A stretch of DNA of 53,650 nt, from assembly GCA_018398765.1 (NCBI GenBank), contig JAHBMJ010004770.1:23929-77578 (forward strand). Direction: 5' to 3'. The translations under genes and the position numbers were made by a program. Positions 29,305 to 51,090 of the stretch are shown here, one piece after another. The notes under the pieces were generated by a model that ran no database searches, was not told the origin of the DNA, and saw only the letters and a program-made list of their open reading frames with translations. The stretch comes from Chromera velia. Taxonomy: Eukaryota; Sar; Chromeraceae. The number at the start of each line of letters is the position of its first letter. The first letter of the stretch is position 1.

Positions 29305-29882
29305 CAGAGGGGGGGAAAGGAGGACTGTGAATGTCTCACGGGGAGACGGACGTGTGATGGCTGGGGGCAGGTCGACCCGATTAGGACCTCAGCTCAATGA
29401 AGCCCCATGAACCATAATTTGATGGGATTTCTGTTGCTCTTGTTGTGTCAATTGAAGGGATGTGATGTGTGAAGGAAGTATTGGAAGTCGCGTAGAAAGT
29501 CTGCTGTATAAGGCTGTCGAGAGATATGAAGTTAGCTCGGCAAGCGGAGTTAACTCGGAGAGCGTATAAAGGCCGAGCTAAATTAAACGAGCTACATCTG
29601 CATGGCCCCGGAAAGCTATAGCTATAGCTTTTGCTTGCATGAGGGCGTCTCCGCGGCCGGTCTGGCCAAATTTGGCCCCATGCATGCAATTGAGATGCTT
29701 CCGCACTCTTTGCACGGCTTGATCAGCTCTGTTGGTTGGTTGCTCTTCATGTTGAGTCTTCTGGACAGACTTCGGTCAGTGACCCACCTTGTTCCACACT
29801 TGTAGTCAGGTTTATCGATTTCCTGTTTCTTGCTCACTGGTGTCCCCCTCCGAGACGGAGACGGCATTGTTCAACCGAGTAC
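29305..29882. promoter_or_regulatory. Divergent promoter interval, ATPase gene and ispE
   Basis: This 578-base interval lies between two outward-facing starts. On the plus strand TATAAA at 29565-29570 could serve ispE, about 315 bases before its ATG. An open frame of 67 codons (29602-29805) begins MAPESYSYSF and has a hydrophobic stretch; it would be an upstream ORF or untranslated leader rather than a separate gene. AGCTATAGCTATAGCT at about 29613 is a short palindromic run. Confidence 0.4.
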
Positions 29883-31276
29883 ATGCCCGTCTCTCTGGTG
29901 TTTCTTGCCTTCGGGCTGGCGACAGCCGTCACGGCATCATCGAATGCCCCCACCCAGGCCCCCGCCTTTCTCAGCCATCTTCAGCGCAGTACAGCAGCAT
30001 GCGGAGTTCGGGGCCGAGCGAGGAGACGGACAACATGCCGTCTCGCAGAGACAGAAGGGGAGACATTGACTCTGTTCTCTCCCTCCAAAGTTAACCTCTT
30101 TCTTCGGATTCTTCGAAGAAGGCCAGACAACTACCACGATCTGGCTTCTCTTTTTCAAACCATTAGCCTAGGAGACTCTCTCTCCTTCTCTGCACTACCT
30201 ACAGGTGCGTCTGCTGACGTCCTGACATGCACTGACAGCTCAGTTCCTACCGACGGCAGCAATTTGGTCGTGAAGGCCTTCGATCTGTTCAGGCGAAAGT
30301 CCGGGAAGAATAAATTCTTCCGATGTCATATTGACAAGAAAGTCCCCAACCAGGCAGGGCTGGGGGGGGGGTCAGGGAATGCCGCAACTGCCCTCTTTGC
30401 TGCTGCCAGACTGACGGCCTCTGGAGACGGGGCTGTCTCGCAGGAGGATCTCTTGAAGTGGTCTGCAGACATTGGCTCCGACATTACTTTTTTTCTTTCC
30501 GGGGGCACTGCCTACTGTACAGGGAGGGGGGAGATTGTGGAGCCCTTGGCAGCTCTTCCTCACGCCCCCCCCTGTCTGTATGTCGTGAAGCCCGACGAAG
30601 GCCTCTCAACGCCCCTTGTGTACAAATCCCTCGACCTCTCAGCACTCTCTCCGGAGGACCCTGACGGCCTTCTTCGGTGCTTTTGTGCGGAGACGGCTGA
30701 CAGGTGGAGGTTGGTCAACGACCTCGAACCTCCTGCCCTGAAGAATTTGCCGTCCTTGAAAACTCTGAAGGGGGAGATGGGGGAGTTATATGGGGTGCAG
30801 GAGGGGAAGGGATTGGAGAATACAGTAATGATGTCGGGAAGTGGCACTGCTGTATTTTCACTCGGAGAGCCTGTCGGGGGAAAGGAGGCCTTCAAGAAAT
30901 TTGTTGCTGACAGGTCCGTCTGGATGTTTGTTGGATTGAGGGGTCTTCTCACAGTGAATGTTCCTTTCGGGGTCCCCTTTCTGACTGTCTTTCAAAGTGC
31001 TGACCATTTTATGCGACTGAATTTGTACTTGATTGCCTGGCTGTTCGTTTTCCTTTCTATTTACCTGCTTGTCCACTTTTTTCGGTTTGCCCTTCTGATT
31101 TGCCCTTTTTGGAGTGAAGAACAAAACACATTCTATCTAATGAAGCGGTGTTTTGCACGTTTACGGCCCTCTTCCTTCCAAGACATCTCAGCGTGCACGG
31201 AAACAGCTGTAGAGGAAGCGTCTGTCTGAAGACTGCCACCCAGTTGACGTATCGCCGGGCGAGTGCCGGCCCATAG
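29883..31276 (+). CDS. ispE: 4-diphosphocytidyl-2-C-methyl-D-erythritol kinase, plastid-targeted
   Basis: IspE phosphorylates CDP-methylerythritol with ATP in the plastid MEP pathway to isoprenoid precursors. From ATG 29883, residues 1-20 (MPVSLVFLAFGLATAVTASS) are a signal peptide, and residues 21-58 are Ser/Ala/Arg-rich and transit-like, as expected for a complex plastid. The mature enzyme starts near LTLFSPSKVNLFL, with the catalytic Lys at 69. The GHMP ATP loop PNQAGLGGGSGNAATA is at 155-170, IGSDITFFL with the catalytic Asp at 200, and a third GHMP motif MSGSGTAVF follows near 320. The open frame reads on to a TGA ending at 31229 through an implausible hydrophobic tail. A GTCCGT donor at 30914 and an AG acceptor at 31181-31182 would instead give FVADR followed by HLSVHGN and a stop at 31274-31276, closer to the family's C-terminus. 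The start at 29883 is chosen over an upstream frame because it exposes the signal peptide. Confidence 0.88.
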
Positions 31277-35837: not shown

Positions 35838-35960
35838 CGGCGCCGCCGCGGCCGCTGGGCCGGACCCTTGGACGCGCGCCGGGCACTCGCGCGCGAAAGA
35901 TGGTCACTCGCGGTTTGAGCCGCGCGTTTGACTCGCGGTTTGAAACTTTGAAACTTTGAG
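35838..35960. repeat. GC-rich island with short direct repeats
   Basis: GGCGCCGCCGCGGCCGCTGGGCC and GCGCGCCGGGCACTCGCGCGCG form a dense GC island. It is followed by two ACTCGCGGTTTGA words and a GAAACTTT repeat. Its composition resembles the islands at 925 and 12859. Confidence 0.45.
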
Positions 35961-36009
35961 CCATGCACGGTTTGGCCAACCGAGCCAACAGCTATAGGAG
36001 GAGACGGGA

Positions 36010-36398
36010 ATTTCACTCAGAAAATAACACCGGCCACACGAGAGTCGGATTGGCCGCGCAGTGGCCGTGCAAAAGTTGGTGAGTAGGGTCTGACTTCTGT
36101 ATGTCACCTCTCCTTCCTTTCTCCACATAAAATCCGCGCCTATTCCGGCCCTCTTCTCAAAGAGCCGGTCGTATAGCCTTGGACGAGGGTCGTTTACTTC
36201 TTCTTCGTGGTCCATCACTTCCTGTAACGCCGAGGATAAACGGACTGGCGCCTCTTCAGACGTGTAAGTGGGGACATGGTCAGCGGGGGGCTTACGTATT
36301 AATTCTGCTGCGTCATTCACGAAATCGTGATGTGCGAAAAATGTTGAGACTGCACTTGTCTCTCTCCCCCCTGCACCCCGTCTCTCTCTCGCATACAA
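36010..36398 (-). CDS. Candidate minus-strand exon, unidentified
   Basis: An open minus-strand frame contains protein-like sequence: FFAHHDFVNDAAELIRKPP, then SSALQEVMDHEEEVNDPRPR, then RLFEKRAGIGADFMWRKEGE. A second minus-strand frame is open at 36714-36421 (HRILDRRFDARQHNWQAP). These could be exons of one gene or part of an element. No domain is recognised and no splice sites are convincing. Confidence 0.25.
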
Positions 36399-36753
36399 GT
36401 GACGAGTTGGTGAAATTACATTACCTGGTTGCCTCCTGGCCTAGGTGTGCCTCTGCTCTATGTTCACGCACAGGAAATCGCTCAATGCGTCGTATGTCCC
36501 GATCCCTGATGTGCCCCTCTCCTGCACAGGTTTCCGAAGCATACCTCGCCCCACTTCCGACACCCCTGGATAGTGTCTGTGACACAGCTGCAACCACGGT
36601 ACCTCCACGTAGTTCCACAAACGACCTCGGCATCTGGACGGGAGCCTGCCAATTGTGCTGGCGTGCGTCAAATCGCCTGTCCAAGATCCTGTGAAGCTTG
36701 TTGAGTTCCTTCACGCCGTAGAGTTCCTCCGCGTTGCGAGTTCCGTGGACGAC

Positions 36754-38421
36754 ATGTTCTCCTCTCTGTTAAGGGCTGGTGTTGTGCTTCTCCTTGACAC
36801 TGCCCGCCGGCTGTTTGAGGAGAGCGAGGAGGACGTGCAGATGCCAAACGCTGCAGTGCACGAGTCTGACCTCGAAGATTTTCTTGACGAGGAGGAGCGG
36901 AGTTACCAAGACCCATGCAGGACGACGGGTACGATCACAAGCTTGGGACAGCTTACAGATGTGCGAGACCAAGGTCACGCGCAAGACCTCCCCTTCAACC
37001 GCGAAGCTGGGGGAACCTGTGCCCTCAATTCAGTCGCCACACATGTCCGTCTTGTGATGTGGCAGAGTGGTTGGCCCCCGATGTCGATTCCCGAGCACCG
37101 AGATCTTGTGCACGTGATGCTACTCTTCCGGCCGGGGTACGAGGAGAGGTATCCCGAATTCAGCCGCACTCAACGTGCACTGCAGTTTGCCTCAGACATG
37201 TACGGTCTCGAGCATCGTGAGATGCACTTGAGAGAGGTGGAAACGCAGCTGAGGAACGGGGCAGCGGTGTCACTGAGCATGCGGTGGCCCGAAAATTCGA
37301 AGGATTGGGCTAGACGATACGGCACAGGGGCGATCCCTCGTGCAGACTTGGAAGGAATGGAATTTTCCGGCAGACACTCGGTCATCGCATTGAGGATCAC
37401 AGAGAGCGATGGGGTGCCGTGTCTTCTGATCAAAAACAGTCACGGGATTGATTGGGGCGATAGAGGATTTTTCGGAATACCCGTCAGCGCCCTCAAGTTG
37501 AAGTGCCTGGAGGTCAAGGCCTACGAGCTTCAGAGCCCCAGACGAATTGACACCCTCGGCAGCATACCACAGTTGAGGTGGACACCGGATCTGGAGACTA
37601 TCAGGTTTTCCAACTGCCCTCTCGGTGACAATGGTGTTGAAATCGTTGCACAGGCCCTCGAGCACTTGGCTGACTCAGAGGAGAAAGGGAGTTGCGAGTG
37701 GCAAGTGGATGAACTCGAGTTTGAGGGGTGTGAGATAGGCCCGCGAGGTGTGAAGAGCCTCTTTCGTTCCTTTCTGACGATGAGTATCAAAGACCGGCTT
37801 TTCTTGACTCACCTTTCCATTGACGGCCTCTGTGACCAAGGGTTGCGGAAGGTGGCAAGAGGTTTGAAGACCCTCAGCATATTTTACGACCTGAAAAACC
37901 TCTCTATCGGTGTGCAGCTCGAGGGGGGGGTTTCCAAGGGAGCGAGCAAGCTGATTTCTGTCTTGGCTGCAGAGAGAACAAAATTCGATTCACTCCGCAT
38001 TCCTGCAGACCTGCTGCATGCTCTGCCGACCGATCTCTCTGGTCGGAACGGAAACCTCTGTAAAGTGAATGTCTTGTCGGTGTACGACTGCGACATCGAA
38101 GCGATCGACAAGATCATCGATCTCTGCAGGGAGGGAAGGGGTCAGTTGTTGAGGGTGAAGAAAAAATTGAGCTTGAGGATGAGGTGCAGCGAAAACGCAG
38201 AGGAGGATGCAGAGCACATCATTGGGTGTTGTGGCGAGGCACCATTCTCAACGCTGCAGGAGCTGTGTCTCTCCCAGAACTTCTTTCAAGACACGGAGGC
38301 GCTGCTCTTGGCAGAGGCAATGGAAGAGGACTTCGCGCACCTCAGAAAACTCGACCTCCAACACAATCAAATATCTGCTGAAGTGAAAGAAAGAATTGGG
38401 ACAAGTAGAGTTACCGTATGA
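36754..38421 (+). CDS. Papain-fold (C1-like) cysteine protease fused to leucine-rich repeats
   Basis: An intronless frame of 555 codons runs from the first in-frame ATG; the frame is open upstream to 36613, so an earlier exon is possible. The peptidase part shows all four papain landmarks in order: VRDQG (oxyanion Gln, residue 73), GGTCALNSVATHV (nucleophile Cys 89), GRHSVIAL (His 208) and IKNSHGIDWGDRGFFGIP (Asn 228). Between Gln and Cys there is an extra DLPFNREA-type insert. The usual Trp after the active-site Cys is Ala. After residue 275 come about ten leucine-rich segments of the ribonuclease-inhibitor type (LETIRFSNCPLGDNGVEIV, LTHLSIDGLCDQGLRKVARG, LQELCLSQNFFQDTEALLLA, LRKLDLQHNQIS). 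No signal peptide is seen, so it is probably intracellular. A recognition-plus-proteolysis role is inferred from architecture only. Confidence 0.75.
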   Translation: MFSSLLRAGVVLLLDTARRLFEESEEDVQMPNAAVHESDLEDFLDEEERSYQDPCRTTGTITSLGQLTDVRDQGHAQDLPFNREAGGTCALNSVATHVRLVMWQSGWPPMSIPEHRDLVHVMLLFRPGYEERYPEFSRTQRALQFASDMYGLEHREMHLREVETQLRNGAAVSLSMRWPENSKDWARRYGTGAIPRADLEGMEFSGRHSVIALRITESDGVPCLLIKNSHGIDWGDRGFFGIPVSALKLKCLEVKAYELQSPRRIDTLGSIPQLRWTPDLETIRFSNCPLGDNGVEIVAQALEHLADSEEKGSCEWQVDELEFEGCEIGPRGVKSLFRSFLTMSIKDRLFLTHLSIDGLCDQGLRKVARGLKTLSIFYDLKNLSIGVQLEGGVSKGASKLISVLAAERTKFDSLRIPADLLHALPTDLSGRNGNLCKVNVLSVYDCDIEAIDKIIDLCREGRGQLLRVKKKLSLRMRCSENAEEDAEHIIGCCGEAPFSTLQELCLSQNFFQDTEALLLAEAMEEDFAHLRKLDLQHNQISAEVKERIGTSRVTV

Positions 38422-41171: not shown

Positions 41172-44100
41172 TCAATCTGAGATCATCTCTACCTCGACAT
41201 CAGAACTGTCAACCACAGGCTCCCGTTTCGAATTTTCACTCAGTCTCCCGCTGCGTCTCGGGGGAGGTTTCTCTTTCTTCTGCTCCCTAGCGCTCTGATC
41301 ATTTTCCTTTTCCTTCTCCTTTTGCCCTCCATGACGCCTTTCAGAGGGCGGGGGGGATTCCTTCTCTCGTTTCGGTTTCTGTGGCAGTGCAGATGAGAGA
41401 GAGCCCTTTTCTGCTTTCTTTGCAGATGCAACAGCGTTGGATGAGCTGCTGCCCTTACCCTTCTCTCCCGAGAGTGAGAAAGACAGAGGGGCAGACGCAG
41501 AGAGAGAGTCACCTCTCTCCTTTCTCCTCTCATCTGCTCTGAGAGCCCTCTCGCCCCTCAACACCGTCTCTCTAGTGGAAGCCCTCCGCTTCCTCAACAT
41601 CTCATGCACCTCCCCCGTGTTCCACACACGAGAGGGATCCAAACGCCGTATTCTCAACGGCATGGAGTTAGACCATGCTGTCAAGGGCCAGGAGGCAGGG
41701 ATGCCCTTCTGCTCTATGAGGGGACGAATAATCCCCGCCCAGGCCAGACTGTCTGCCGCAAGACGAAATCGGAGACGCTTCTCCATCACCTCTTCCTCGT
41801 CTTCATCCTCCTCCTCTTCCTCTCTCTTTACTTTCTCCTCCCCCTTCTCTCCACCCTTCTGACTGGTCTCTTTGTCTGCCCATTCATTGAACGTTCGCAA
41901 CCACCTCTTTACATCCAATACAGAGCCGCCCTCTGCAGCCACCTCAATCCCCCTGTATGCAATCATGACGTCTTCCATTGACTCTCTCGTGCTGGCCTGA
42001 TCTAGGAGGGTCCCGAATCGGCAACAGTCACACGACAAAGACGCACTTCCCTTGCACCCCGCAACAGACGCTAGAATCTCCCTTGAGTCACCCGGGTAAA
42101 GTCGGGAGATGACCTGGGAGACCTCCTCTTCGGAGACGGAAAAAACGGAAGAAACACTGGAAGGCACAGAGACAGAGTGCCCGAGGGAATAGACAAGACG
42201 AACTAGGGAGGCAAGGAAAAGACGAGCAGAACGACGGGAAGACAGAGACTGTTTCTTTGCCCCTTCTCTCTTGGGACCTGATGATGACGGACTCGGGCCT
42301 CCCCGGTCCCCCCCCTCTGCATCTTGCTCCCTTTCTGCTTGCTGAGCAGCCATGTCCATCTGTTGCCGTCTCTTCTCCCGTGCTGTCGCGGGGTTTCGCA
42401 CGACACTCTGCGTGGGAGGTAGCTGAGCGGCAAGGGGGTGGGCGTTGGCGCTGGCAGACGGGCGCAGCACCTCAGTCTGGGCGGCAGCACTTTTCTGGCT
42501 CCTATATGAGGAAGGAGACGGATTTCCTCCCTCGCCTCTGTCCATGACTGCACAGAGCCTGTCAAGGACCTCTGAGATCTTCCCCTGGTCTTTCAAAGAC
42601 TCGAAAGAGTCGACCTCGTCCGATTCAGCAGAGGCCGTTGAGAGACCCTCGAGGACCCGAGCGGCCTCCAGGAGGTCGGCACTCGAGCACACACTCAGCT
42701 GCTCCTTTGCCATCTCCTGGGCCGTTCGGAGAATCTCAATTGCCCCTGTCATATCCCTCAGAGACTGCGCAGTGACGCGACAGGCCTCTCGGAAGTTCTC
42801 ACGGCAGCACGCGACCACACGATCCTTCAGGCGGGATGCACCCATGCGAAGGTCGGCAGCGACTTCTGCAGAGAGGAGAGGAGAGGAGAGGAGAGGAGAG
42901 AAGGGGAAAGGATAGAATCAATGGCTGCTGCAGGCAAAAAGGCCGTGGCTCGTCGTGTCGTCTTGTGCAAACGCGGAGAACAAACACAGGATAGCAAAGA
43001 AAAGCTGCAGACATACACAGAACCACCGTTGTGTGCCGAGAACGATTCCCGAGACCAAATCGACAAAGTGTGCACAAAAGATTCATGAACGTATCTTCTC
43101 AAAAGGAGAAAAACAAGGTCTTGCTGTGGAAGGCCTGTTTAGACTGTCACTGAGAACAGTCAGTCGCTGTTTCTCTTGCACCCCTCTGACTACCTGCCCG
43201 AAGTTTCACCGCTTTCCAAATCCGTACAATGAGAAGAGACTGCCGGCTAACCTGCTCGAAGGTTTTCAGACTGGAGGAGGTTCTCTTCTGCACGTGCAGA
43301 CGCCCCCCTGATGATGCCGCCAAAGAGAGACTCCAACTCCGCACGTAACCAGAAGGCGACATGCCACAACTCCCTGCGTGCATGGCATTGAACAAGTTGC
43401 AGCCACAAACGGCGTCGGGCGTCTTGCTGTTGCTTGCTCCGCCCAACAACCCCCTCCTCCTCCCCTCCCTTCCCCGCCGCCCCCCCCCTTTTCAGAGAGG
43501 TGCCGCGACCAGCCGCAGCGGACGAACGGCCCTCTCCCCCCCCTTTGTTCTCCTTTTCGGTCTCCCCCACCCCATTTCCCTCAGCTCCCTCTCCCAAAAA
43601 CTTCACCACTGCTTCCTCCTGCAGGAAAAGGGACACATCCTCCTTGCCCTTTCCTTCCTTCATTCTGCACCTCTCCTCTACTCTCTCACAAAACATCTCC
43701 ACACGTTCTGCCCACCCCCTTTCCCCTTCCTTCTCGATGGATCCCCCTTTCCCCAAAAGAAGGTCGAACAAATCGGGAGAGGCAACCAGGCGGAGCGCGT
43801 GGAGATCGGTGAAGGCCGGGACCTGAGGGCATGCCGGGGCCTTGGAGGAGGAAGGCCCCGGCATTCCCTCAAGAGGAGTGTGGAATTCGGGAGAAAAGAA
43901 TTGGCGGAGCAGAAAAAAAAGGAAAGACCGCAGTCGGGACAGCGACCCTTCAGAGTCAGAAAATTTATTCCAACACACGCACAACGCATGACGGACTGAT
44001 TCTTCCGACACGGCCAGAGGAAACACAGAGGGATCAGTCAATCTGCACAGAACTCGCCCAGCCACTTTGGAGGTTTCGATCAGACGGAGAGGGAGCACAT

Positions 44101-44896
44101 GGACCCTCCCTAGAATTTCGGACGGAAGGGTTGCGGTGAGAAATTCCGGCCCTGTGCTGGAGGCGAGAACTGCGGATGCGTCTACACCATGGAGGATGCG
44201 AAGGAGTGAAAGGGCCTGTAGAAGCAGAGGGAGGGAGGACCCGACAAGCAGATTTGCATCCTCAATGAAAACGGAAAAATACGGAAAGACGAACTCACTC
44301 CTCAGCCCTTCACACCATTTACCTAGGCGATCAAGCTGGAGGCCTAGAGCTTCTGCCTTCCTCGTTCTCTCTTCTCCCCGTCTCTCGGGTCCCCCCTCCG
44401 TCTCCGACTCATCTGAGGAGTCATCCCCACAACCCTCACCCTCAACCCAACCCTGCCCCGCTGCCACACGCCACTTCTCCAAAATAAAATTCAAAAGCAC
44501 AGATGCCTCACATTCTGACGCACGCAGTCGGGCAATCAACCAGGGCCGCTCTACTCTTCCGACTTGGTGGTCCTTCGTCGCTTTCGAAATGTGGTCAGAA
44601 ATGCAGCGAAGCACTTCGGCCGCATCTTCACTGCTAGGTCCTGTCTCTGCTATGACTATGGGGACCTCTCTGAAGATTTTTGAGGGAGACGGGAGACCAG
44701 ACTCTTGGAGAAAGGAGAAAAGCTGCTGGAGGGGACTTTCCAGACTTTCGAGAATTTCGTCTGAAAGAATCGAGTTGATTCGATCCCAGGACACCTCGAA
44801 CGCCTTTCGTCTTCCCGACAGGCTTTCTAGTTCTGACTTCTTTTTTGACTTTGCCCTTATCTGCGAAGGATTCAGCTTACTGTTCCAAGACAGCAT
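41172..44896 (-). CDS. ORC3: Origin recognition complex subunit 3
   Basis: ORC3 is a scaffold subunit of the complex that marks replication origins and loads MCM in the nucleus. Exon 1 (44896-43252) starts MLSWNSKLNPSQIRAK and ends in phase 1 at a GTTAGC donor; exon 2 (42865-41172) follows a CTCTGCAG acceptor. The intron is 386 bp and the product 1,112 residues, longer than typical ORC3 because of low-complexity inserts. Family features in order: FEVSWDRINSILSDEI and VPIVIAETG (first strand of the degenerate AAA-like core, no Walker A lysine); FPYFSVFIEDANLLVG (Walker-B-like strand, residues 204-219); SAVLASSTGPEFLTATLP and VLPLRLIETS; FLFFLLRQFFS. In exon 2, VMIAYRGIEVAAEGGSVLDVKRWLRTF and RFRLAADSLAWAGIIRP match the C-terminal winged-helix region. 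The tail is Lys/Glu/Ser-rich. Recognition rests on motif order, not a search. Confidence 0.78.
42866..42900 (-). repeat. GAGAG repeat at the ORC3 intron acceptor
   Basis: Plus-strand GAGAGGAGAG units read on the gene strand as CTCTC repeats ending directly in CTCTGCAG, another microsatellite serving as a polypyrimidine tract. Confidence 0.85.
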
Positions 44897-46511
44897 TTTT
44901 CTTTTAGTTTTCTTCGCGGAGACGGATTTGTGGTTGACAAACCGAATGATACGACACCTTTCTGTTTCGTGGACAGCACACCAAGAGTGTGGATCAGGCC
45001 TTTACTGCAACTTCACCAATCGTCACATTTCTTTTTTAAACCAATATGAATACATTATTAAACAGACATCATCCGATCAATTCCGATCATCAAATCGACA
45101 TCAAATCTGACGCAGCGACCGTGTGACAAAGCGCGATTGTCTGACACGGAGCTAGAAGAGATCTCGCGGCGGCTGCGGGCGCGCGCGGGGCAAAGCTCGG
45201 CATGGGCCGGCATGGCTCCCAGGCTCTGCATAAGAAGAAAAAGCGGGCCTTCAGGACACGGCTCAGCTGTACTGCAAATTGGGCACACAACTCTGACTGC
45301 TCAATCAGGGTACCTCCTATGGAGTCCTTCTATCACGCCCACATAACCAGTTCTGCTACCATGATAAGAACTATTAAGGTGGAGGATCGACTAGTGGGTT
45401 TAGCTGACAGATTCACGTAGGTTGGACTCCATCAGTCAGGAGGAGTATCAGTCCAGTACTAAGTACAATCACCAGACAAGAACAATTAAAGATCATACTC
45501 TTTGGGTGTGAGGATACACATCGATCGATCAGTCGCTGCAGGCTAATGAATACGATAGGCCTGCACGCATGCTATCTGGGGCTAACTGACAGGCACTGCA
45601 GAGGTGGCACACTGGTTGCACCTAGTTACACCACAAGGGACAAGGCTAACCCGTAATGCACACAAGCATACATAAGCCAGACGTTAGGTATGAACCAAGG
45701 TGGTTCATAACAGTAAGTACACTAGCCCTCAAACTCTCAAAAGGGAAAGCTTGATCTAATACCGTCCTCAAAAATGAAATTTCGCCAAACTCTAAAATTT
45801 TATTCAATAATTTTGTTGCCTAGGGTAGTATTGATCTGTACATGTGTTATAATCCCATCTAGAATAAAAATTAATAAAAATGTAAGAAATGTTGAGCTAA
45901 ATGGGGCCTAGAAGGCACAAAATCCCAGAAAATGTGAAGTGTTCTATAGATGGTGCCGCGCACGTTGCATGGCCCATGCTGCCCGTCCATGCACGTCATG
46001 GGGGTTGCAGCTGCCGCCGGGTAAGTGGGTTCCTGCGATAGCGTACGCACTCACGCATGTACTCACTTAACTCCGCACACAATGCGTGCGAACTGACTTG
46101 TATGTATTAAATTATGCTAATATTTTATGCTTTATATACCGGCTGAGGATATCAGCTTGACGTGCTGGTGAGATGCCGCAGTGAGTTTTTTGAGGCTGAC
46201 AGGCTGTGTTCAGGCTTTAGCTGAGTTTATTCTTAGAAAGTCATTAATATTTTGCAATTGTTCCTAAAATTGTAAAAAACTACTTTAAAAATGAATGAAA
46301 ACATTGATGCCACTGCTTACTACTATTTAGACTATTACATGCATCCACACACTATACTATAACCACGGATGACGATGGCACATCATTAATTATGATTAGC
46401 CATGGTCATTTCGACATGATAGATGAAACAAGCTAGGAAACAATCTGGGTTTTACACACAGTGGAATGGGAAAAAGAGGTAGCTTGGCAAGTAGGCGAGA
46501 ATACCGATGCA
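44897..46511. other. Intergenic spacer with a GC island
   Basis: Near 45165-45215 there is a GC-rich island (CGCGGCGGCTGCGGGCGCGCGCGGGG) followed by GGGCCGGCATGGC. The remainder is AT-rich. The word GTACTAAGTACAATC and several ACTAG motifs occur, but no coding frame is convincing. It holds the 5' flank of ORC3 and the 3' flank of the HNH gene. Confidence 0.5.
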
Positions 46512-48605
46512 CTACTTAGTTTGCAGGCAGTCGGGCCTGCCAACGAACCGGTTACCCTTTCGGAGGTTTTCTTCTGACCACATCGGTTGAAGGTTCAAAA
46601 AGTGGAGACGGGCAATCTGGGTGTTAACATCCGGTTTCTTCCCATCAGGGCCCGGATACATGATGGGGACAATGTGGTCGACATGCCACCCATTCCCCCC
46701 ATAATTGTCCCACGACATTCCGGGGCGGAAGTCTCTCTCCAAATGAGCCTTCAGCTGCTCAGAGGAACAACCAATGTACTCCAAACTGCGCTTTTCCTTC
46801 ACGGGGCCTGCCTTGTCCCGAATGGAAGCGAGACATCTCCACACTGTCCGACGCACCACCTGCGCCAACCGGTAGACAGTGTTTTCTTGATACTTTGTCC
46901 GTTGGCGAGCGTTCTTCTCTTCTCTCCTGAACAGAAAGAGGGGATTGTCCTTTTGACAGATTGAGCATCGATACCTCAACCGCCCATGTTCGCAGAGACT
47001 CCCCCCGCCACACACCTTACATTTACTGCGCTGGTGGCCGTGCTCGCAGAATGCGCTGCCCCCACACTCCTTGCAATAATTGCGCCGGCGGCCGTGTTCA
47101 CATATACCTGTGCCCCCACACTCCTTGCAGTAATTGCGCCGACAGCCGTGTTCGCAAATGCTACTCCCCCCACAGTCCTTACAAAGACTACGCTGTCGTC
47201 CGTGCTCGCAAATACCCTTCCCCCCACACTCTTTGCACTTGTTGCGCTGACGACCGTGCTCGCAAATACTGCTGCCCCCACACTCCTTGCAATGACCACG
47301 CTGTCGCCCGTGCTCGCAAATACCCTTCCCCCCACACTCTTTGCACTTGTTGCGCTGACGACCGTGCTCGCAAATACTGCTGCCCCCACACTCCTTGCAA
47401 TGACCACGCTGTCGCCCGTGCTCGCAAATACCCTTCCCCCCACACTCTTTGCACTTGTTGCGCTGACGACCGTGCTCGCAAATACTGCTGCCCCCACACT
47501 CCTTGCAATGACCACGCTGTCGCCCGTGCTCGCAAATACCCTTCCCCCCACACTCTTTGCAATAATGGCGACGACGGCCATGCTCGCAGATTCCCTTCCC
47601 CCCACACTCTTTACAAAGACTACGCTGTCGTCCGTGCTCGCAAATAGCCCTACCACCACACTCCTTGCACTGCCTTCGCATCCGACCATGCTGGCATATG
47701 CTACCTCCTCCGCACTCCTTGCACTGACTCCGCTGTCGCCCGTGTTCACAAATGCCCCGACCTCCACATTCTTTGCAACGATGTTTTTGGTGGCCGTGAG
47801 CACATATACGGCTGCCCCCGCACTCCTTGCAGTACGTCCGCTGGCGGCCGTGCTCGCAGATTCCCCTCCCTCTACACTCTCTACAATAATACTGGTCTCT
47901 TCCATGGGGGCACTTGGCCCGTTTTTTTTCCTTAAGGGGACTGTCGGAGGATATTTTCAGGGCAGAGACCAGGCAAGATGGGACTTGGGTGTTGCATTTG
48001 TCTGTGATGCCTGTGTTTTCTCGGGCCCGCAGGTTCGTCGCCGACTCATAAGATCTCAAAGGTGCAGACCCAGTGTAAATGGAGGTCCGATCGCACAAAG
48101 AAAAGTGGCCGCACGACTGAATACTTCTACATGCCAACCCTAGCGCGGGGGCGAGGGCAGGAGGCTTCATGGGAAAAGGGGAGGACCAAAAAGATCTTGA
48201 AACAAGAAGCTGGGATGATTTATGGGAGGCGTCGGAAGACAGAGGGTGCGGCGTGGAAGAATTTCCGGTAAACAACCCATCGGTCTGAAGATGCTGTTCG
48301 AACCGCAGCTGTTGGAGGTTCAAATTGTGGAGAGGCAGAAACTTTGTCACGGCCTCTTTTTCAGTTCTCCCCAATTCATTGCGCATTGATCTGTGCCCAA
48401 AACCGTATCTCATGTTTTGCACTGGATGGAGTCTTGCATGTCGAAGAGTCGTTTTTGCCGAAAGAAATCTCCTGCTTTCCCCCGTTGACTGACATGTTTG
48501 TTTACGGTCTGATCTCGTCTGCAGGGTCGCACTGAGCGCAGAGGGCATGAGGTGCTGGCAGTATCTCTTATTACAATGCAACACTTGCGCAACGACACCC
48601 TGCAT
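46512..48605 (-). CDS. Cys/His-knuckle repeat protein with C-terminal HNH nuclease domain
   Basis: A single-exon frame of 697 codons starts at ATG 48605. Residues 1-225 are unstructured and Ser/Arg-rich. Residues 231-555 are 18 tandem repeats of 18 residues with the pattern C-x-H-x6-C-x2-C, consensus ICEHGRQRxxCKECGGxx, each a likely one-zinc knuckle. The last unit is degenerate (CSICQKDN). The C-terminus resembles phage and homing HNH nucleases: YIGCSSEQLKAHLERDF, then MSWDNYGGNGWHVDHIVPI (His-Asp-His near 641-644), then LHFLNLQPMWSEENLRKGN (Asn 671 and the final Lys). The domain cuts DNA in known relatives. Zinc-repeat arrays followed by HNH occur in several algal and protist genomes (from memory). 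The repeats probably bind nucleic acid; the biological role is unknown. Lack of introns suggests mobility or transfer. Confidence 0.82.
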   Translation of the reverse strand: MQGVVAQVLHCNKRYCQHLMPSALSATLQTRSDRKQTCQSTGESRRFLSAKTTLRHARLHPVQNMRYGFGHRSMRNELGRTEKEAVTKFLPLHNLNLQQLRFEQHLQTDGLFTGNSSTPHPLSSDASHKSSQLLVSRSFWSSPFPMKPPALAPALGLACRSIQSCGHFSLCDRTSIYTGSAPLRSYESATNLRARENTGITDKCNTQVPSCLVSALKISSDSPLKEKKRAKCPHGRDQYYCRECRGRGICEHGRQRTYCKECGGSRICAHGHQKHRCKECGGRGICEHGRQRSQCKECGGGSICQHGRMRRQCKECGGRAICEHGRQRSLCKECGGKGICEHGRRRHYCKECGGKGICEHGRQRGHCKECGGSSICEHGRQRNKCKECGGKGICEHGRQRGHCKECGGSSICEHGRQRNKCKECGGKGICEHGRQRGHCKECGGSSICEHGRQRNKCKECGGKGICEHGRQRSLCKDCGGSSICEHGCRRNYCKECGGTGICEHGRRRNYCKECGGSAFCEHGHQRSKCKVCGGGSLCEHGRLRYRCSICQKDNPLFLFRREEKNARQRTKYQENTVYRLAQVVRRTVWRCLASIRDKAGPVKEKRSLEYIGCSSEQLKAHLERDFRPGMSWDNYGGNGWHVDHIVPIMYPGPDGKKPDVNTQIARLHFLNLQPMWSEENLRKGNRFVGRPDCLQTK
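46941..47915 (-). repeat. 54-bp coding repeats, 18 units, with 108-bp higher-order triplication
   Basis: Each unit is 54 bp and codes one Cys/His knuckle. Between about 47217 and 47540 three consecutive 108-bp double units (KGICEHGRQRGHC... and SSICEHGRQRNKC...) are nearly identical at the DNA level, while the outer units are diverged. This points to recent expansion by unequal exchange. Confidence 0.9.
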
Positions 48606-51090
48606 ATATATTGCATTCTTCCTGGAATGATTACAACAACAGAGAGTGAGGCTGCCGCACCTACTCCGCCCGCAACCTTAGCCTTTTTTTTTTTAGAGAA
48701 TGCTGAGGTGATCACTTTGTATGAAGCGTGTCAGCCAGCGAAGGTGGATTCCCCCTGGTGGAAGCTTCATGACATGGAGTACCGGGTACGGATGGGTACG
48801 GTATAGTAGCGCGGAGTATATATAGTAGGACTGAGGATAGAACAGATTAAAAAATGGGTGCGCAATGCGAGCGAGACAGATATAATCACCCCTGACAGAA
48901 TTATTATTATAAAAGTGGTAGGGCCCGAAGGGCGCCGTGCGGACCTTGCAAAACTTGTAAAAATTTATAAGTCCAGAGAATCGGATTGACGTCACAATTC
49001 ATCATAATGAATCTATTCATTCTAATCATATATGGTATCATATGTTCAGTTCAATGGATCAGTGGCGTGGTGCGGCGTCGCGGCGCGTTGGGGGGGTGGG
49101 GGTAGGCAGGGAGTGAGATGTGTGGAGCGTGAGGGTAGAGTGGCACGAAAAGGGACAGGGGGGGAAGAGGGATTCGACTTCAGGGTTGAGTTGAGCTCTG
49201 ACTGACCTGCATGCATATGCATATGTGCGGTGGCGCGCGAAAAGGGCCCACGTGCATCTGCGAGGTCGCACGCGCATATCGATAATTATAATAGGGTGCA
49301 TAGGCAGCGGAGCATCTGTCTTCGGGGGCGTGTGGAGTTCTACCCTGTGGCACTGCCCTTTGAGCCTTCGAATGCACCATAACTGAGTGAGCCAGCGTGC
49401 CGCACCACATTCCGCCACCGCGCTTTGCTTCGTACATGTCGCGCGTGTATCGATCGAAGTTGAGTCTGACCTTTGCAATGTTCATATTTAAACAACATGT
49501 CACTTGAGCAACAGATAGGATCGTTTAAGGCTAATGTCTGTTTATCTAAGACTCTGAGAGAGAGGAACAGAGAGAAACATAAGTGGAAATTGTGCAATAA
49601 TAGAATGAACCCGGCTGATTGGAATCCCTGTGTCGACTTTTATGTACTCTCTATGATAGAAATCAGATCTGTCCTTGCGCAACAGTAGAAAACCGATTAC
49701 AACATATCGATATGGGCATGGTTAGGCAGAGACCATGAGTGGAGGAATTCAGCATCCCCTTGTATCCCAAGCTGCCTAGGGTTCTCTTTTGGAGACCCCT
49801 TTCGAGTCCGATCCTGGACTTTGCCTTTGTCTTTGGGTGGAGAGCCCGAAGATCGTTGGAGGTCGCCAAAGCCGATAATCTTGTGGAGACATTCAAACTC
49901 ACTTGGTATTGCTTGGAACTTCGAGAAGCCTGATTTTATTGAGAATGCCACGTACGAGCAGATCGCAATTCAAACAGCCAGTAGAGTGCTTTTTTTATGC
50001 CTTTTGATTCTGTAACTGTCTTTGTCTTCCGGACGAGTGTCAGCTGATCACCCTCACTTATCTTTACTGTTGGTTGCTTGCTTGTCTGGCAGTGCGCAAG
50101 GCTGACCACCTTAAAGTTTGTGGCCTGCAAACACCTCTAGTGTGTCTGGGTCTGTCTGGACTGGTCCTGCGACAGCGTTCAAATATAAAAAGATGCCCTT
50201 TATCTCTCCTATCTGTCTGCGAGGCTGCCATTTTTTTCAGAGAGAGAGCTTATCGCTTCTGGCTGTCCGGCTATCGTATGGATCGTTTGATGAGTGGCCG
50301 TTCGATTGGGTGCATGAGACTCGGCATGCATGTTTAATAGACAGAAGGGACAGGTGGCGGCGTACTACATGGACTAGCACAGTGATGGCCGGTGTGCTAG
50401 CCGGGGAAGGCTTTCTGCTCTGGGACCCCGACGCGGCGAGCCTGGAGTAGGAAGGAGGAGGAAGTGAGGAAGGGATACAAAATGACATCGAGGCTGCCCT
50501 CGACGGTAAGAGAGGCAGAAGGGTTATAGCAGACCTACCGAGAGACAGGGTAGGGTACACGGCAGCTGCCGCCTCGTCTCTCACTGGCACTGGCACATTT
50601 TCTACTAACAGGGAAGGGAAAGAGAGGGAGAAGGGGGGGGAAAGGGGAAGAGGGGGTGAAAGCGGGGGATAAAGGGAAAGGGAAGGGGAGGGAAAAAGGG
50701 GGGGAAAAAAGGGGAGAGGGGGGTTGCTTTGGGGTGAGGGGGTGAATCGAATTGAGGCTCAGCCTGGCCGAGAGCATGTGAAGTACTAACCTGTAAGGGC
50801 TCAATATGGAGGTGCCCGCTGCTAAACCCGCCGCCGCGGCATCTTATTGAGATATGCGGGGCGGGCGTGCCGCATGGATTTATGGAATAATGATCGCATA
50901 TTGATTGAAGCATGATTGAATACGAATCAAACAGACTGATTGATAAGAAGGAAGACATTCTTCTTCTTATCAGTCCTCTCCGTATAAATGATTTGAATCT
51001 TCTTATAGTAAATTCTCTTCTCCGCTAGAGCCTAGTAACTTTCAATTCAGTGTGTCACGATCTGATTGAGTCAAACCGGAATTTTTAAAA
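48606..51090. other. Spacer with short unassigned ORFs
   Basis: No gene can be supported. An ATG frame at 49500-49688 (MSLEQQIGSFKANV, stop TAG) and an open plus-strand frame at about 49760-50015 (containing LGIAWNFEKPDFIENATYEQ) look protein-like, but opposite-strand frames are equally open. From 50600 to 50740 the sequence is purine-rich (GGGGAAAGGGG runs). TGCATGCATATGCATATG lies at 49208-49225. Confidence 0.4.

Follow-up and report, generated by a model that had tools for sequence, protein, structure and literature searches.

A gene of Chromera velia joins a putative papain-like cysteine peptidase domain of the C1 type to leucine-rich repeats (LRRs) in one continuous reading frame. The gene is located in a 53,650-nucleotide stretch of contig JAHBMJ010004770.1 (positions 23,929 to 77,578, forward strand), referred to here as the window, and all coordinates are those of the window. 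The second, C-terminal lobe of the peptidase domain is homologous to C1 peptidases; the papain fold and the layout of the active site are predicted. The reading we favour, at about even probability, is that the product is a catalytically competent cysteine peptidase with a diverged papain fold, which would be intracellular and cytosolic and would be targeted by its LRRs. The features of the gene are as follows.

36754..38421, + strand: open reading frame (ORF) of 555 amino acids plus stop, from the first ATG (translation, stop-free run, simulation)
36613..36753, + strand: stop-free, possibly coding extension 5' of the ATG, an upstream exon or part of one (codon-position G+C)
36916..37539, + strand: predicted papain-like (C1-type) domain, residues ~55-262 (profiles, alignment A8, AlphaFold model, VIA-align)
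36970..36972, + strand: Gln73, oxyanion-hole position (papain Gln19), aligned to Gln in 48/48 relatives
36976..37005, + strand: 10-residue insert between Gln73 and Cys89, its exact placement in the loop being arbitrary (spacing)
37018..37020, + strand: Cys89, nucleophile position (papain Cys25), followed by Ala, aligned to Cys in 48/48 relatives
37375..37377, + strand: His208, catalytic His position (papain His159; PF00112, PDB and A8 alignments)
37435..37437, + strand: Asn228, catalytic Asn position (papain Asn175; PF00112, PDB and A8 alignments)
37441..37443, + strand: His230, at the papain Trp177 position (A8 alignment)
37579..38403, + strand: ribonuclease-inhibitor-type LRRs, about nine units of 27-33 residues (LRR_6, LRR_1, PDB matches, motif scan)

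The frame is open from ATG to TGA and lies within a stop-free run of 602 codons that begins at 36613. None of 500 first-order Markov sequences with the composition of the local 4.5 kb reached this length, the longest simulated run being 392 codons. G+C content at the three codon positions is 0.59/0.40/0.63 overall, and the pattern is kept throughout the gene. It also extends upstream to 36613 (0.70/0.34/0.66 in 36613-36762, resembling the gene's own start), so ATG 36754 is possibly not the true start, which may precede it and might be separated from it by an intron. Pfam, I29 included, has no match in 36613-36903. The description of the gene as intronless holds for frame 36754-38421 only. A hidden 33-base intron in the Gln73-Cys89 insert was set aside by inspection; its excision would leave a spacing one residue below the usual one.

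Relatives of the protein were sought in prokaryote, viral and plasmid collections and in the PDB. In the PDB and in plasmids most matches of the peptidase part were weak ones to C1 peptidases, and those in plasmids led to a group of compact C1 peptidases whose bacterial members have about 210-240 residues. Matches judged to be due to chance were 5lec_A, a designed repeat protein (E 0.063), and 2gmy_A (E 0.3) in the PDB, and five of ten plasmid records, which lack an annotated feature. Scans (patterns DQG..TC and RNSWG) provided the best 80 of 117 relatives from genome_contigs, 79 of them distinct, and 70 loci encoding relatives from viral_contigs. Two loci without a detectable frame (L027 and L080) were left out; L090, whose end is frameshifted, was kept in the bacterial profile but omitted from the dynamic-programming test and from alignments A7 and A8. 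A motif and length rule removed 25 of the 70 viral-contig loci, so the remaining viral-contig rows carry the catalytic tetrad partly by selection. Of the representatives, 21 of the 31 bacterial ones and 27 of the 37 from viral contigs are in alignment A8.

Profiles of these compact C1 peptidases recognize the domain. Its identity to them is only about 16-28%. It scores 36.4 bits with the bacterial profile, 25.8 bits with the viral-contig profile (best of 2000 shuffles 6.3) and 37.5 bits with the profile from both sources (best of 2000 shuffles 4.0). Among the 818 stop-to-stop ORFs of at least 40 codons in the window, this ORF alone passes the inclusion threshold of any of four profiles. The Pfam family PF00112 matches the C-terminal lobe only (residues 186-242). 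The papain domain claimed in the initial annotation is upheld by profile searches for the C-terminal lobe and by the compact C1 profiles, but not by the PF00112 cut-off, and its N-terminal lobe (N-lobe) is weak by sequence alone. Searches with tblastn against phage records gave no match, nor did PHROGs or PADLOC for this protein; NCBIfam gave just one LRR-region match under cut-off and one chance row. Scans with the protein itself found no relative in viral_contigs (peptidase part) or genome_contigs (whole protein).

Gln73, Cys89, His208 and Asn228 occur in this order at aligned positions, in agreement with the earlier description of an intact tetrad, and the spacing of His and Asn, 20 residues, is within the 17-23 seen in the relatives. 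The earlier description also noted an insert between Gln and Cys, which proves to be 10 residues long. It further took the lack of a Trp directly after the nucleophile Cys as a hint of possibly unusual activity or specificity. That argument falls, because none of the 48 compact C1 relatives has a Trp there. Most of those viral-contig relatives (L111-L180) whose motif was listed have Thr at that position. In papain, Trp177 shields the Asn-His bond. As judged from the alignment, the His at the Trp177 position is a stronger oddity than the missing Trp after Cys, and it was overlooked in the first reading.

An AlphaFold model of the domain and VIA-align agree with a papain fold, the input alignment of the model including C1 relatives; the papain fold named in the initial annotation is supported by prediction, with that qualification. 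Cys89 corresponds to model residue 50, at the start of model helix 49-65. The bacterial profile picks out RDQG at 71-74 and the viral-contig profile GTC at 87-89, with the 10-residue insert between them. In a separate dynamic-programming test the score of the N-lobe was reached by 16 of 1200 shuffles.

In the second half of the protein, residues 270-555 exceed the cut-offs of LRR_6 (34.1 bits against 23.4) and of LRR_1 (25.1 bits against 20.6), placing repeats of the ribonuclease-inhibitor type directly after the protease domain as had been proposed. A phmmer search of the PDB with this half matches LRR chains, the best at E 5e-5 and ribonuclease inhibitor at E 5e-4. A simple LRR motif fits six units in a motif scan, and about nine are counted by eye. 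The alternation of strands and helices expected of an LRR horseshoe is partial in the low-confidence full-length model. Five other LRR loci of the C. velia genome weakly match the LRR half (E 0.018 to 0.44), and no peptidase motif is seen in them by eye.

The combination of a C1-like domain with LRRs appears to be unusual, its parts being known. The C. velia searches covered an assembly of 177.8 Mb in 4040 contigs. Neither a second copy of the gene nor a second C1-LRR fusion is among the matches listed. The genome has at least 39 C1 places and at least 38 LRR_6 places (150 of 479 candidates scored), with no contig common to both; the gene itself is in neither list, and both counts are lower bounds. 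Three long-frame C1 matches were rejected as candidates for a fusion with LRRs. Two of the frames pass through stretches of N, and the third (730 codons, with a CGSCW motif) has no LRR in its first 400 residues. The C1-LRR architecture was not seen among the papers listed by full-text literature searches. Orthologues in other eukaryotes may exist. IPR009003 is presumably the trypsin-like PA clan. According to PMC11378527, the group 3 ROCO-LRR proteins of brown algae have a C-terminal IPR009003 peptidase domain. PMC11734081 lists a C1A domain among the nucleotide-binding LRR (NLR) proteins of Medicago truncatula, so a C1 protease paired with receptors of the LRR class is not entirely unprecedented.

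Several results weigh against a competent papain-type peptidase. Against the PF00112 cut-off of 20.7 bits the whole protein reaches 17.7 bits and the domain by itself 20.1 bits, and the domain is therefore called C1-like rather than counted as a Pfam member. The distance between Gln and Cys is 16 residues, compared with 6 in 48/48 relatives. The Trp177 position has His, compared with Trp in 48/48 relatives, many of which were found or kept by a Trp-containing pattern. The distance between Cys and His is 119 residues compared with 135-159, at least 16 residues shorter. In a tree, the end branch of the domain is about 7 changes per site, which makes placement impossible. The domain model was pushed toward the papain fold because C1 relatives were in its alignment, and the full-length single-sequence AlphaFold model (predicted local distance difference test score, pLDDT, 39.5) is too poor for use. 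By sequence alone, the N-lobe is the weak point of the papain assignment. A profile of four cathepsins of the same genome, which failed as proof of the N-lobe, gives it -4.4 bits, a score that 441 of 1000 shuffles also attain. The profiles of compact peptidases perform better here. The score of the bacterial compact profile over residues 41-200 is reached by 24 of 2000 shuffles; over residues 41-160 the numbers are 9 of 2000 (viral-contig profile) and 58 of 2000 (both sources). The largest N-lobe run is reached by 294 of 20,000 shuffles with the bacterial profile and by 149 of 20,000 with the viral-contig profile, and both are reached together by 14 of 20,000. Alignment by hhalign with the cathepsins (A1) or the bacterial C1 rows (A5) covers the C-terminal lobe alone. 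An hhalign comparison with A4 was not used since A4 included the protein itself and the test was circular, and a MAFFT alignment with only the cathepsins put the Gln-Cys motif in the wrong place.

If the favoured reading of an active, LRR-targeted peptidase is correct, Cys89 would be the attacking nucleophile, His208 and Asn228 would activate it, with Asn228 orienting the Cys89-His208 pair, and Gln73 would stabilise the oxyanion. LRRs are mostly protein binders. Here they would bind a partner or substrate and so set where and on what the peptidase acts, the simplest role being to bring that substrate or partner. The sensor-effector role proposed in the initial annotation is an inference. No I29 propeptide matches residues 1-555, although an upstream exon could still carry one; the peptidase would therefore have to be kept in check by its LRRs, by a separate inhibitor or by where it is located. 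The main rival, which we consider rather unlikely, is a pseudopeptidase in which the papain fold is a binding or regulatory module beside the LRR scaffold, with little or no catalysis. Altered or lost activity is a serious rival because His replaces Trp177 and the oxyanion loop carries an insert. The short Cys-His stretch, the very high divergence and the lack of a second copy among the genome matches listed are also consistent with it, but all four catalytic residues are kept despite an identity to the relatives of only about 16-23%.

The LRRs could instead be a built-in inhibitor or sensor that folds back on the active site until ligand binding frees the peptidase, as in a caspase- or NLR-like sensor-effector. 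The missing propeptide match and the position of the LRRs directly after the peptidase domain would suit such a device. By analogy, the five plasmids scanned encode a compact C1 peptidase beside a metallopeptidase bearing an I42 domain (above cut-off in 3/5), and because these genes adjoin, compact C1 peptidases may be restrained by means other than a propeptide. We nevertheless regard it as unlikely, as no NTPase (NB-ARC, NACHT) or signalling domain has a Pfam match in residues 1-555, where again an upstream exon could still carry one, and the peptidase-LRR arrangement has low confidence in the full-length model. An LRR-guided papain-type executioner in a photosynthetic relative of apicomplexans, a cytosolic protease that its own LRR solenoid both restrains and directs and that needs neither NTPase nor death-fold domains, is distinctly doubtful. 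Secretion or a vacuolar location, by way of a signal peptide in the N-terminus or an upstream exon that would place the LRRs outside the cytosol, is suggested by the uncertain start codon and the hydrophobic AGVVLLL near the first Met; this run is short and by eye has charged residues directly after it, and we consider such a location very unlikely. Scarcely credible is the explanation that two separately transcribed genes, or a dying copy, have been read as one: fast divergence and the lack of a second copy for comparison among the genome matches listed would allow it, but the 602 stop-free codons, matched in 0/500 simulations, and the codon-position signal across the whole frame argue against it.

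These results leave the earlier observation partly confirmed, in its frame, tetrad residues and LRRs, with the N-lobe as the weak part; its interpretation keeps the predicted papain fold and the LRRs in one frame and loses the Trp argument. An active enzyme would carry its choice of target in the repeat domain joined to it, a design simpler than NLR or caspase systems and readily testable because both halves are short and within one frame. An inactive one would have retained the papain fold as a scaffold along with its catalytic residues. Either way, a protease is joined to a type of LRR found in many other frames of its own genome.

Other genes were noted in the window and on the plasmids. 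Two open frames on the - strand at 35907-36714, just 5' of the protease-LRR frame, resemble exons of another gene that, by eye, a GT-AG junction could plausibly connect; DNA 35900-36780 matches the genome at no second place. The frame at 29694-31226 (+) encodes a GHMP kinase (PF00288, E 1.8e-12), which we take to resemble plastid IspE. An origin recognition complex winged-helix domain (PF18137, E 4e-6) is encoded at 41175-42917 (-), and the frame at 43250-45001 (-), without a Pfam match, may, as a guess, belong to the same gene. The product of 46515-48677 (-) has no Pfam match; it contains about eighteen similar repeats of the ICEHGRQRxxCKECGG type, and the C-terminal part after them includes HVDHIVP, which by eye is HNH-like. 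In plasmids L020, L022, L023, L024 and L026 (L021 in part), genes for a helix-turn-helix protein, an ImmA/IrrE metallopeptidase and a compact C1 peptidase follow one another. The I42 domain of the metallopeptidase is C-terminal and chagasin-like, of a C1-peptidase inhibitor family, and the operon resembles a protease switch that brings along its own inhibitor. The gene after the C1 peptidase has a sub-threshold likeness to thymidylate synthase in three of the five copies scanned; a uracil-DNA glycosylase gene is next in 5/6 of these stretches, and a MazG or NTP-pyrophosphohydrolase gene is present in 2/6. In a Deinococcus plasmid (L025:2378-3787) a C1 peptidase precedes a region with sub-threshold likeness to TerB and a long run of acidic DEEDI repeats.

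Among known systems, the compact C1 peptidases of prokaryotes and viral contigs are most like the predicted domain: they share the order of the tetrad, the lack of Trp after Cys and the His-Asn spacing, and their profiles give the best scores. A further likeness is that the annotated plasmid copies (L020-L024 and L026) start at the domain or close to it. The C. velia protein differs in its 10-residue insert, His for Trp177, the shorter Cys-His stretch and LRRs; because of its Gln-Cys spacing of 16 and the His at 177 it is placed near the compact group and not in it. To call its nearest relatives bacterial would be biased by the collections searched, and a bacterial origin by transfer was considered, but the tree cannot place the domain. 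Cathepsin and papain-type C1A peptidases, including those of the same genome, differ in that the protein has no I29 match, no CGSCW motif and a PF00112 score below cut-off. Ribonuclease-inhibitor-type LRR proteins are alike in LRR_6 score and PDB matches and differ by the absence of a joined peptidase. The Medicago NLR and brown-algal ROCO-LRR proteins likewise have a peptidase domain within an LRR-bearing class, and these have an NTPase core, whereas the C. velia protein has none by Pfam.
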